IMG/VR virus record: IMGVR_UViG_3300035698_017566
Coordinates: 1-20,368 of that record
DNA: 20,368 nucleotides
Strand: one strand, 5' to 3'
Source: a virus
Shown here: positions 8,185 through 11,153 of the stretch, piece by piece
How the letters are laid out: the number at the start of each line of letters is the position of its first letter
How positions within the stretch are numbered: position 1 is the first letter of the stretch
The notes under the pieces: model-generated
Seen by the model: only the letters and a program-made list of their open reading frames with translations
Databases searched by the model: none
What the model was told of the DNA's origin: nothing
Program-made: the position numbers and the translations under genes

Positions 8185-8213
8185 TTGAATTCTCACCGAT
8201 CAGGCAGTATAAC
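8185..8213 (+). promoter_or_regulatory. Sigma70-like promoter before the endonuclease gene
   Basis: TTGAAT (8185-8190) and TATAAC (8208-8213) are separated by exactly 17 bases and match the -35 and -10 consensus at four or more of six positions each. The expected start of transcription is near 8220. That start lies inside the hairpin arm of the next entry, so a transcript from here would lack most of the 5' arm. This is the only good sigma70-type promoter I found in the window. Confidence 0.5.
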
Positions 8214-8237
8214 CTAAGGGTGACCTTTATCCTTGGG
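8213..8237 (+). promoter_or_regulatory. Shine-Dalgarno-masking hairpin of the endonuclease gene
   Basis: CCTAAGGGT (8213-8221) pairs with ATCCTTGGG (8229-8237) over 9 bp including two G-U pairs, with a 7-nt loop. It captures the first half of the SD run GGGGGA (8235-8240) for the ATG at 8246. A smaller alternative, ATCC-TTGGG-GGAT (8229-8241), covers the same SD. It should lower translation from transcripts entering from the capsid gene. Confidence 0.55.
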
Positions 8238-8245
8238 GGATTGTC

Positions 8246-8776
8246 ATGGTCAAAGAGAAGCTGTGCAGTAAGTGCCGGGTTTTAAAACATTCGTCGGAGT
8301 TCTATAAGAGAAAGTTACTGAAGTGCGGGCTTAGTAGTTGGTGTAAAGAATGCACAGAGATATTGGGAAAAGCAACCAAGGCAAGATACCGTGAGCAGAA
8401 CAAAGAGGCAGACTACAAAGGGTACAAGTACTGTGGGAAGTGTGGGAAGCGGAAGCCGAAGACACGGTTCCACAGGAACCGCACCACTAAAGACGGCCTC
8501 GAGTGGAGCTGCAAGCTGTGTCACCTTGATAAACAGATGCGGATCAGGATCGGGATTGTAAGGGAAGACAAGAAGAGGGTATTCCATGAGCAGAACGGTA
8601 AATGTGCAATATGCGGCAAAACAGCCAGGTCTTTTAAAGGGCTGCGCGTCGACCATTGCCATGATACCAAGAAGTTTAGAGGCCTCTTGTGTCATTTCTG
8701 TAATGTCGGTCTGGGTCATTTCAAGCACGACCCAGAGATACTCAAAAAAGCAGTGGAGTATCTGGGAAAACACTAA
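8246..8776 (+). CDS. Endonuclease VII-family HNH-type nuclease (probable free-standing homing endonuclease)
   Basis: The product (176 aa) has three zinc sites. Two N-terminal ribbons are formed by C7/C10 with C33/C36 and by C63/C66 with C89/C92; each is followed by an 'FY.....' or 'RFH.N' stretch as in small phage HNH proteins. The catalytic C-terminal domain (about 113-176) has C120-x2-C123, the DHCH motif (D136-H139) and RGLLCHFCNVGLG (145-157, C149/C152/N153), the signature of the T4 endonuclease VII (recombination endonuclease VII) family. T4 endo VII cuts branched DNA; stand-alone genes of this kind inside capsid operons are more often homing-type nucleases. It interrupts the head genes with a 99-bp spacer carrying its own promoter and hairpin, and uses more AAG, AGA and TTT-type codons than its neighbours, which fits insertion. 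Confidence 0.85.
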   Translation: MVKEKLCSKCRVLKHSSEFYKRKLLKCGLSSWCKECTEILGKATKARYREQNKEADYKGYKYCGKCGKRKPKTRFHRNRTTKDGLEWSCKLCHLDKQMRIRIGIVREDKKRVFHEQNGKCAICGKTARSFKGLRVDHCHDTKKFRGLLCHFCNVGLGHFKHDPEILKKAVEYLGKH

Positions 8777-8781
8777 CAGCT

Positions 8782-8805
8782 TGTGTGGAGCTTTTCATTC
8801 ACACA
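8782..8805 (+). promoter_or_regulatory. Hairpin with conserved 12-nt loop, copy 1
   Basis: TGTGTG (8782-8787) pairs with CACACA (8800-8805) around GAGCTTTTCATT. The SD AGGGAG (8805-8810) starts at the foot of the stem, and the ATG is at 8816. Copy 2 (9347-9370) has a different but perfect stem and an almost identical loop, so the fold, not the stem sequence, is conserved. Confidence 0.7.
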
Positions 8806-8815
8806 GGGAGTTATC

Positions 8816-9337
8816 ATGACAGCGTATGACTACAAGTCAGTAAATGAAGAGAGCGTATCGGCAGTGACCGCTACGCCTTCTGTTGACCTTGGTACAATCA
8901 GATTCAACGGCGGGATCCAGTATCAGTACATGTATAACGCTGGCGGAGCAGGTAACCAGGGCTGTCCGGTCCTCGTGACTGGTGCGACAGACTATAACTT
9001 CGTCACCACTTATGCGCAGATCGATACACTGACTGCTGCGGGTGCTGATGGGTTCGCATTTGCCGGAGTCCTCCACAATGCTACATGCGCAGCGTCATCG
9101 TACGCATGGGTAGCTCAGCGCGGTATGATCCAGTGCCGTCCGGAGTCTTCAGCTATTGAAGTCGGTGATGCTGTGCTTATTAAGGACGGTGGAAATGCTA
9201 TCATCGCACGTTCCGGAGTCACGGACACTGCTACTGCTGCAGAGTTGTGCTCGTTCATCGTCAACCCTGTAGTCGGTCAGGCCATGGAAGCGGCTACTGC
9301 TGCTGCTACTGGGACTATCTCAGTGTACATCCGATAA
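8816..9337 (+). CDS. Putative capsid decoration/head surface protein, copy 1
   Basis: The product (173 aa) is a Thr/Ala/Gly-rich beta protein with no recognised named family. It is the paralogue of the next gene: both share ESVSAVTATPS, DLGTIRF, YQYMYNAG, VTGATDYNF, LTAAGADGFAFAGV, NATCAASSY and ATAAATGTI in the same order, about 60% identity by eye. Start 8816 is chosen over an in-frame ATG at 8783 because SD AGGGAG (8805-8810) serves it, because the paralogue starts at the equivalent point, and because 8783 lies within the hairpin. Composition and position behind the capsid gene suggest a head decoration or accessory protein (inference). Conserved Cys residues (NATCAASSY) may matter for structure. 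Confidence 0.7.
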   Translation: MTAYDYKSVNEESVSAVTATPSVDLGTIRFNGGIQYQYMYNAGGAGNQGCPVLVTGATDYNFVTTYAQIDTLTAAGADGFAFAGVLHNATCAASSYAWVAQRGMIQCRPESSAIEVGDAVLIKDGGNAIIARSGVTDTATAAELCSFIVNPVVGQAMEAATAAATGTISVYIR

Positions 9338-9379: not shown

Positions 9380-9901
9380 ATGGCAGTATATGGAATGAAA
9401 CCAATTGAGATCGAGAGTGTGTCGGCAGTGACCGCTACGCCTTCGACTGATCTTGGTACGATACGGTTCTATGGAGGCAATAAGTATCAGTATATGTACA
9501 ACGCTGGTGCTGAGGCATACACAGGAGCTCCTGTGTGGGTGACAGGTGCGACAGACTACAACTTCGTCTCCACCTATGCCACATTCGCTGCTCTGACAGC
9601 AGCAGGTGCTGATGGATTTGCCTTCGCAGGTGTGGTACAGAATGCCACATGCGCTGCATCGTCGTATTGCTGGATAGCTCAGTCAGGTCTGCTTAATTGC
9701 CGTCCTCAGTCGTCTGCTATAGCGGTCGGGGATATGGTGCTCGCTGCGGATGACGGAAATTTCGTCATGTCCCGTACCGGAGTCACCAACACTGCTACTA
9801 CTGAAGAGCTTGCTTCGTATATCGCCAACACAGTTATTGGCGTGGCGCAGGAAGTTGCTACAGCAGCGGCTACTGGTACTATCGCAGTATGGCGTAGGTA
9901 A
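9380..9901 (+). CDS. Putative capsid decoration/head surface protein, copy 2
   Basis: This product (173 aa) is the paralogue of the protein encoded at 8816-9337, of the same length and order of motifs. An exactly shared 23-nt stretch at 8858-8880 and 9422-9444 points to a fairly recent tandem duplication or gene conversion. Differences cluster in surface-like stretches (e.g. NAGAEAYTGAPVW against NAGGAGNQGCPVL, residues about 40-53) and in the C-terminal third. Two slightly different copies could occupy different sites on the head or broaden surface properties. The leader hairpin was duplicated with the gene. Assignment to the head surface is by position and composition only. Confidence 0.7.
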   Translation: MAVYGMKPIEIESVSAVTATPSTDLGTIRFYGGNKYQYMYNAGAEAYTGAPVWVTGATDYNFVSTYATFAALTAAGADGFAFAGVVQNATCAASSYCWIAQSGLLNCRPQSSAIAVGDMVLAADDGNFVMSRTGVTNTATTEELASYIANTVIGVAQEVATAAATGTIAVWRR

Positions 9902-9908
9902 CTAACAA

Positions 9909-9968
9909 AGCCGAGTCGGGCAGGCAGTGCTGCTATCCCCCAGGGTATGCAGCCTGCCAGCCTTGGCT
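9909..9968 (+). promoter_or_regulatory. Large two-part hairpin in the leader of the DUF115 gene
   Basis: The outer stem AGCCGAG (9909-9915) pairs with CTTGGCT (9962-9968, one G-U). After a 3x3 internal loop, the inner stem GGCAGGC (9919-9925) pairs perfectly with GCCTGCC (9952-9958). The 26-nt terminal loop holds ATCCCCCAGGGT (9935-9946), which is complementary to the SD region (next entry). Only CTT follows, without a T-run, so it is not a normal terminator. Confidence 0.75.
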
Positions 9969-9991
9969 CTTAACCAATAATCCTGGGGGAT
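9935..9991 (+). promoter_or_regulatory. Anti-SD/SD pair: possible pseudoknot switch
   Basis: ATCCCCCAGGGT (9935-9946, in the hairpin loop) pairs with ATCCTGGGGGAT (9980-9991) over 12 bp: 11 Watson-Crick pairs and one G-U, ten of them contiguous. The second arm contains the whole SD run GGGGGA (9985-9990) of the ATG at 9996. A competing local hairpin AATCC-TGGG-GGATT (9979-9992) also covers it. This arrangement would form an H-type pseudoknot that hides the ribosome site. Confidence 0.65.
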
Positions 9992-9995
9992 TGCA

Positions 9996-11153
9996 ATGAG
10001 TGTGACAATAAACGAAAACGTACAGACAGCAGCACCTACTATCATACCGGATCCGGTTGACACTATCAATGTTGACAGGAACGTGATCGATAATTATGAG
10101 AAGACGATCGCGGAGCTTCGTGCAGAGGTAAATGCACGTGTACCTATGAAGCTCACCTTTCAGCAGCTGATAGAGCAGCCCCCGATTACTCGTGAGCAGA
10201 TGTATGAGCAGTCCTGCTCCAATGACAGCGTCACAGTGAAGTTCTGGCGTGATAAATGGGTGGGGCATACCCGGGAGAACATGGAGCTGTATGACTTCAG
10301 AGAACACAGTTCCATGACGTCCTATGCCAAGTACGCCTGCCGTCCTGTAGTAGTAGCTGGAAGCGGTCCTTCTCTGAAGAAGAACGCGCACCATCTCAAG
10401 GACAAGAACGAGAATATCGGTCTGGTGTCATGTCTGCACAATTTCGCCTATTTCATTGACAACGAAATAAAGTGTGACGGATACATCAACATGGACGCCG
10501 GGGACATTACGATCCCGGAGATGTCTCAGGGCGGGAAGCACCCAGAGCAGTATTACTGGGATGCCTCTAAGGATCAAACGCTCATAGCGGCATCTGTCAC
10601 CAAGCCTGAGCTTATTAAGCGATGGCAGGGCGACATCCAGTTCTTCCAGGCTCCCATACCTGACCAAGCTATCATGAAAGAGATATGGGAGATCACTAAA
10701 GGATTTGGTGTGTTCTACAATGTTGGAGGCAATGCTCTTGGAGCGACTTACTATCATGCACGTGCTATCCTGGGCGGGATGCCTATTGCTATGATCGGTG
10801 CGGACTTCGCATTCGATTACATGCATAAGTTTCACAGCTGGGACAGTCCCTATGATAAGCAGTTCGACGGAGTAGTGCCCTGCACAGACATATTCGGGAA
10901 TCGGGTATACACATGGCCCTCTTATCTGAATTTTTCCAAGTGGTTTCTGTCGCAGGCTATGGGCGGTAATGGAAATAATCCGATGATTATGATCAACTGC
11001 ACAGAGGGTGGAGTGCTTGGAGCATTTCCTCACGGGAATGTGAAGCATGTACATCAGATGGCACTGGTCGATTTCCTTCACATGTACAATCATTACACAA
11101 GAAAACCGGAGATGGTCGAAAACCCTCCGGATCAACCAAAACTCTTATTCTGA
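9996..11153 (+). CDS. DUF115 / Maf-MptE-like protein (putative glycosyltransferase)
   Basis: The product (385 aa) carries the DUF115 signature: PVVVAGSGPSLKKNAHHL (117-134), where the G-x-GPSL loop is the family's nucleotide-binding hallmark. Next come a Rossmann-like strand with 'GLVSCLHNFAYF' (142-153) and the later block GGNALGATYYHARAILGGMPIAMIGADFAFD (about 245-275), the usual 'a..fG......I.L.G.D.a' part. DUF115 occurs in motility accessory factors (Maf) that transfer nonulosonic acids to flagellin and in the archaeal pterin enzyme MptE; sugar transfer is the more likely activity here, but the substrate cannot be read. Residues 1-110 form a helical extension. It lies directly after the two putative decoration genes, so virion glycosylation is a reasonable inference. 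Its SD is buried in structured RNA. Confidence 0.7.
   Translation: MSVTINENVQTAAPTIIPDPVDTINVDRNVIDNYEKTIAELRAEVNARVPMKLTFQQLIEQPPITREQMYEQSCSNDSVTVKFWRDKWVGHTRENMELYDFREHSSMTSYAKYACRPVVVAGSGPSLKKNAHHLKDKNENIGLVSCLHNFAYFIDNEIKCDGYINMDAGDITIPEMSQGGKHPEQYYWDASKDQTLIAASVTKPELIKRWQGDIQFFQAPIPDQAIMKEIWEITKGFGVFYNVGGNALGATYYHARAILGGMPIAMIGADFAFDYMHKFHSWDSPYDKQFDGVVPCTDIFGNRVYTWPSYLNFSKWFLSQAMGGNGNNPMIMINCTEGGVLGAFPHGNVKHVHQMALVDFLHMYNHYTRKPEMVENPPDQPKLLF

Follow-up and report, generated by a model that had tools for sequence, protein, structure and literature searches.

The locus and the leader of the DUF115 gene

The window, i.e., the whole 20,368-base virus record analysed here, carries a block of head and packaging genes in the order terminase, portal, major head protein, homing-type endonuclease VII, two paralogous decoration-like genes, and a DUF115/MptE-like gene. 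The endonuclease VII gene, at 8246 between the head protein gene and the first decoration-like gene, has its Shine-Dalgarno sequence (SD), ATCCTTGGGGGATTG, inside a local hairpin (8206-8260) that resembles the SD hairpins of T4 homing endonucleases, and this SD segment closely resembles that of the DUF115 gene. The contig of a related phage contains a Group I intron (L007:2056-2317; Rfam RF00028, 76.9 bits). The decoration-like genes (8783-9337 and 9380-9901) are paralogous open reading frames in tandem, the second encoding a structural-type product of 173 aa on the plus strand, and their copy number differs among relatives; none lies between the head protein gene and DUF115 in L025. Neither product matched PHROG or Pfam, and the label "decoration-like" follows their position after the major head protein and their paralogy, which suggest such a role. 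A gene similar to that at 9380-9901 precedes DUF115 in most relatives.

The DUF115/MptE-like gene (9996-11153, plus strand) encodes 385 aa with a match to PF01973 (E 1.1e-16). The AlphaFold model of its product has a mean pLDDT of 89.5, and the best solved match to the predicted fold is the Maf glycosyltransferase 5mu5 (E 2.6e-9), followed by archaeal HPPK and sialyltransferases. The match to 5mu5 agrees with the Pfam assignment, and the product is probably a Maf/sialyltransferase-like glycosyltransferase, to judge from the modelled fold. The position of the gene suggests that it may glycosylate a capsid or decoration protein. The SD of the gene, GGGGGA (9985-9990, plus strand), is placed 5 nt before the ATG, and its duplex with the 16S tail (-8.4 kcal/mol) is comparable to those of other genes in the window.

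A gap of 94 nt separates the stop codon of the second decoration-like gene (9899-9901) from the DUF115 start at 9996, and the leader structure lies within it (9902-9995), all of its elements on the plus strand. A sequence-only reading had described here a hairpin with two 7-bp stems, whose loop could form a 12-bp helix with the SD segment, and all of these elements are present. The hairpin (S1, 9909-9968) consists of outer, inner, and top stems: the outer stem pairs AGCCGAG (9909-9915) with CTTGGCT (9962-9968), and the inner stem pairs GGCAGGC (9919-9925) with GCCTGCC (9952-9958). RNAfold shifts the lower stem slightly (9913-9921/9960-9969) and adds a top stem (9929-9933/9949-9953). The hairpin alone has a z of -4.4 against dinucleotide shuffles, 1 of 200 being as good. 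The loop strand ATCCCCCAGGGT (9935-9946), within the apical loop at 9934-9948, is complementary to ATCCTGGGGGAT (9980-9991) on the SD side over 12 bp, comprising 11 Watson-Crick pairs and one G-U pair (helix S2); this complementarity was equalled in 0 of 300 shuffles. A single-stranded linker without G, TTAACCAATA (L3, 9970-9979), connects the hairpin with the SD side. A further local hairpin covering the SD (9979-9992), pointed out in the same reading, exists in the window; it is not kept in relatives and is therefore probably incidental. No second copy of the leader was found across the window record.

Loop-SD pairing in related leaders

DUF115 searches of IMG/VR yielded approximately 100 related loci. 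The same layout, i.e., a long hairpin whose loop strand can pair with the SD segment, followed by a short linker and the start codon, occurs in 15 distinct leaders (18 contigs), every one of them before a DUF115 gene: the window, L001, L002, L006, L007, L008, L025, L027, L028, L029, L038, L101, L120 (to which L121-L123 are identical), L190, and, as a weaker case, L009. Their hairpins have a mean z of -4.7 with differing stem sequences, and the leaders are too divergent for reliable sequence alignment. The S2 helix is CCCCCAGG/CCTGGGGG in the window, L006, and L007; TCCCCCTGGA/TTCAGGGGGA in L025; CCCCCCTT/AAGGGGGG in L008; CCCCTTGG/CCAAGGGG in L001 and L002; CCCCTTTGGT/ACCAAAGGGG in L027 and L029; CTCCCTTGGTGGT/ACCACCAAAGGAG in L028; CTCCTTTGGT/ACCAAAGGAG in L101 and L120; CCTTCTTTGCGGGAG/CTCCCGCAAAAGAGG in L038; and TGTGTGTGA/TCACACACA in L009. 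The 3′ strand of S2 includes the SD, at least partly, in 14 of the 15 leaders. The exception, L009, pairs just upstream of the SD through a GT/CA repeat, for which 29 of 300 shuffles are as good; a T-rich tract follows the hairpin of this leader (L009:4794-4900), possibly a hybrid of terminator and pseudoknot.

Pairing between leader bodies and the last 26 nt before the start codon was compared for cognate and swapped partners, without choosing loops, in 30 leaders of at least 70 nt. The cognate sum was -486.7 versus -380.9 ± 18 for swapped partners (p<2e-5), and the signal is due entirely to the 14 motif leaders, the other 16, from the sister clade, having none (p 0.73). In the S2 core, ten distinct rows carry two-sided changes in 8 of 8 pairs, with 93.8% of cells paired versus 68.9% when shuffled, although the register was aligned by hand, which biases this count in its favour, a bias from which the swapped-partner test is free. 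The covariation score of the core is 0.697 versus 0.242, none of 500 shuffles pairs as well, and every slid register is worse. The related leaders are not independent of one another, but the nine different S2 sequences imply that compensated changes arose separately several times. Thus, where the earlier reading had asked for covariation in homologous leaders, the complementarity is retained in 15 leaders with extensive two-sided changes.

The association with DUF115 also emerged from searches that did not start from the gene. When 2,922 start codons from 91 loci were scanned blindly for a hairpin plus loop-SD complementarity, DUF115 starts took each of the top ten places. Furthermore, a DNA-only pattern (TCCCCCAGG, gap, CCTGGGGGA) matched 14 viral stretches, two of which are the known contigs L006 and L007; a new match, L190, has a strong hairpin and a correctly placed start codon, and its product is a DUF115 protein with 50% identity to that of the window over 105 residues.

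In a tree of 94 DUF115 proteins, which does not include the later-found L120 and L190, all 13 motif rows fall in one 20-row clade (SH-aLRT 100%), and the distribution of the motif needs three changes versus 12.4 for shuffled labels. Within the clade, L040 and L044 have plain hairpins in place of the element, and L031, L033, L035, and L103, whose gene start is close to the upstream stop, have none; the contig of L024 begins inside the leader, where element status is not readable. The element is therefore dispensable. In L025, DUF115 directly follows the head protein gene and the element is kept beside DUF115, which indicates that it serves the downstream gene. No relatives were found among named phages in 50,697 records, and GTDB genomes contained one partial relative in which the leader is not covered.

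A proposed lock on translation and its alternatives

The conserved pairing suggests that the leader is probably a cis-acting RNA lock on DUF115 translation. A stable hairpin would form just past the stop codon of the upstream gene, its loop would pair with the downstream SD segment to give an H-type pseudoknot, and the pseudoknot would keep 30S subunits away from the DUF115 SD. By analogy with established SD-sequestering RNAs, hiding the SD would lower translation, i.e., repress rather than activate it. DUF115 and the capsid protein genes appear to share a transcript, and DUF115, presumably needed in small amounts, could thus be translated less than the abundant capsid proteins or at another time; the lock may serve such dosage or timing. 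It may be a fixed attenuator, or be opened by a protein (possibly DUF115 itself), the ribosome, RNase processing, or temperature. That the pseudoknot is a true switch, with the lock under the control of the DUF115 glycosyltransferase, of its sugar-nucleotide donor, or of some other infection signal, is conceivable and rather doubtful.

In most leaders the hairpin begins 2-11 nt past the upstream stop. Translational coupling to that stop was rejected as the main role, being not required, as L025 keeps the hairpin far from the stop. Stop-codon read-through or frameshifting into DUF115 was likewise rejected: the frames coincide in L002, whereas in the window, L001, L006, L007, and L008 the DUF115 frame is either closed upstream or not in register. 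The internal loop can be read as a k-turn, but not consistently across members.

Stabilisation of the pseudoknot by a ligand, whether in a metabolite-sensing riboswitch or in a protein-bound operator, is an unlikely explanation. Several translational riboswitches control expression through a pseudoknot that hides the SD, and some members (L001, L002, and L027-L029) repeatedly show purine-rich internal loops of the G.A type, both of which favour a sensing role; against it, the 15 leaders share no conserved unpaired nucleotide, and the internal loops differ in size and position or are missing. Rfam gave no match at the window leader or at leaders in 11 related loci, and nothing at the L001 and L002 leaders; the best weak match (E 3.1) was on the other strand. 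The sequence-only reading had likewise recognised no named riboswitch class. Since conservation is confined to the pairs, the internal loops are variable, and no Rfam family matches, a simple attenuator or a protein-controlled lock is more likely than a ligand-binding aptamer, and autoregulation by DUF115 as a protein-bound operator is compatible with these observations. Of the gating of DUF115 translation that had been proposed from the sequence, the loop-SD pairing is supported by covariation and would gate translation, whereas the absence of a conserved unpaired nucleotide speaks against ligand sensing.

The hairpin and the loop-SD helix might instead be mutually exclusive, forming a thermal or kinetic switch, and the spacer limits do leave a full-length 12-bp pseudoknot tight. 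This explanation is quite unlikely. In constrained folds, the apical loop contains the loop strand, which 0-7 nt precede and 0-5 nt follow; the stem arms are unused in most leaders, and forcing S2 in place of the hairpin makes the nested energy 4-12 kcal/mol worse in most leaders, so the hairpin would nearly always win. The L3 linker of 14 leaders contains 1.6% G and 77% A+T, the hairpins 34% G; it spans 4-16 nt in most leaders and 25-32 nt in three. The leaders at L027:4442-4552 and L101:1836-1941 have such long linkers, that of L027 with a palindrome, TTCACGTGAA. The placement of the loop strand, the nearly G-free linker, and the lower stability of the nested alternative favour an H-type pseudoknot hiding the SD over the mutually exclusive folds that the sequence-only reading had left beside it. 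The S2 lengths (9-15 nt) exceed the reach of an L1 of 0-3 nt were all pairs formed; therefore, either S2 or the hairpin has to open in part. Approximately 8-9 of the 12 possible S2 pairs are sterically likely in the window, covering the G-run of the SD, and on this model both helices would form simultaneously.

Hiding of the SD might also depend on the transcript: read-through mRNA would be locked, and a late promoter inside the leader would give a short mRNA that lacks the loop strand and is translatable. Such a scheme is known from T4 (PMC2988022), L3 is A/T-rich, and one weak promoter-like match lies at 9954-9981. Transcripts from this match (9/12, one of 2 found in the region versus 1.2 expected) would begin close to the SD, the L3 segments have no promoter motif in common, and L3 is in most leaders as short as given above, which together make a transcript-dependent lock very unlikely.

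That the structure is an ordinary inter-gene hairpin (an intrinsic terminator, an mRNA stabiliser, or an RNase III site), its loop-SD match arising from chance and G/C richness, is highly improbable and already largely refuted by the cognate-pairing and covariation tests: several sister-clade leaders do have a plain hairpin there, some with a T tract (L049, L137), and the window hairpin alone is very stable, but chance cannot yield cognate-specific pairing or two-sided changes at every core pair, in the window the stem is followed by no T tract, the next 8 nt including 2 T, and no plus-strand terminator was called, and a stabiliser or RNase III site needs no SD complement, though such roles could coexist with the lock.

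Significance and comparison with known systems

The family is defined by pairing alone, with unusually complete covariation, and is tied to one gene in uncultured phages, where it would link translational control to a probable capsid-linked glycosyltransferase. Since only pairing is conserved, an ordinary nested covariance model would easily miss the element, and similar locks may therefore be common in phage late operons. If the leader proved to be a switch, it would represent a new class of phage regulatory RNA, by which capsid glycosylation would be timed or dosed during assembly. The kind of device, an SD-hiding pseudoknot, is already known; the leader family before DUF115 is very probably previously undescribed, having no entry in Rfam and none in the literature searched, a search that most subscription papers lay outside.

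In riboswitches of the preQ1-II and SAM-II type, the loop of a hairpin reaches over an A-rich linker to pair with an SD located downstream. The DUF115 leader shares this loop-SD pairing and differs from them in having no conserved aptamer nucleotides, no Rfam match, and possibly no ligand. In Escherichia coli, binding of S15 traps the ribosome on the rpsO pseudoknot. This operator is likewise a pseudoknot at the translation start that exerts translational control (PMC3014915), whereas in the DUF115 leader the SD itself is paired and there is no known binder. Among phages, the homing-endonuclease genes of T4 (I-TevI, segB, and mobE) have their SD in local hairpins that are absent from short late transcripts (PMC2988022). 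The DUF115 leader is similar in that a phage RNA structure hides the SD, but it does so through a long-range loop-SD helix and has no supported internal late promoter. To our knowledge, few phage pseudoknots of translational control are known. A review from 2010 considered that of T4 gene 32 perhaps the sole viral pseudoknot in translational autoregulation (PMC3014915). The T4/T2 gene 32 leader is, like the present one, a phage mRNA pseudoknot upstream of a start codon that controls translation; it is located 67 nt upstream, where it nucleates the binding of gp32 over an A/U-rich site, and does not itself pair with the SD (PMC3014915). By contrast, one strand of the putative DUF115 pseudoknot is the SD itself, and the gene under its control would encode a probable glycosyltransferase of the DUF115/MptE-like type rather than an SSB.
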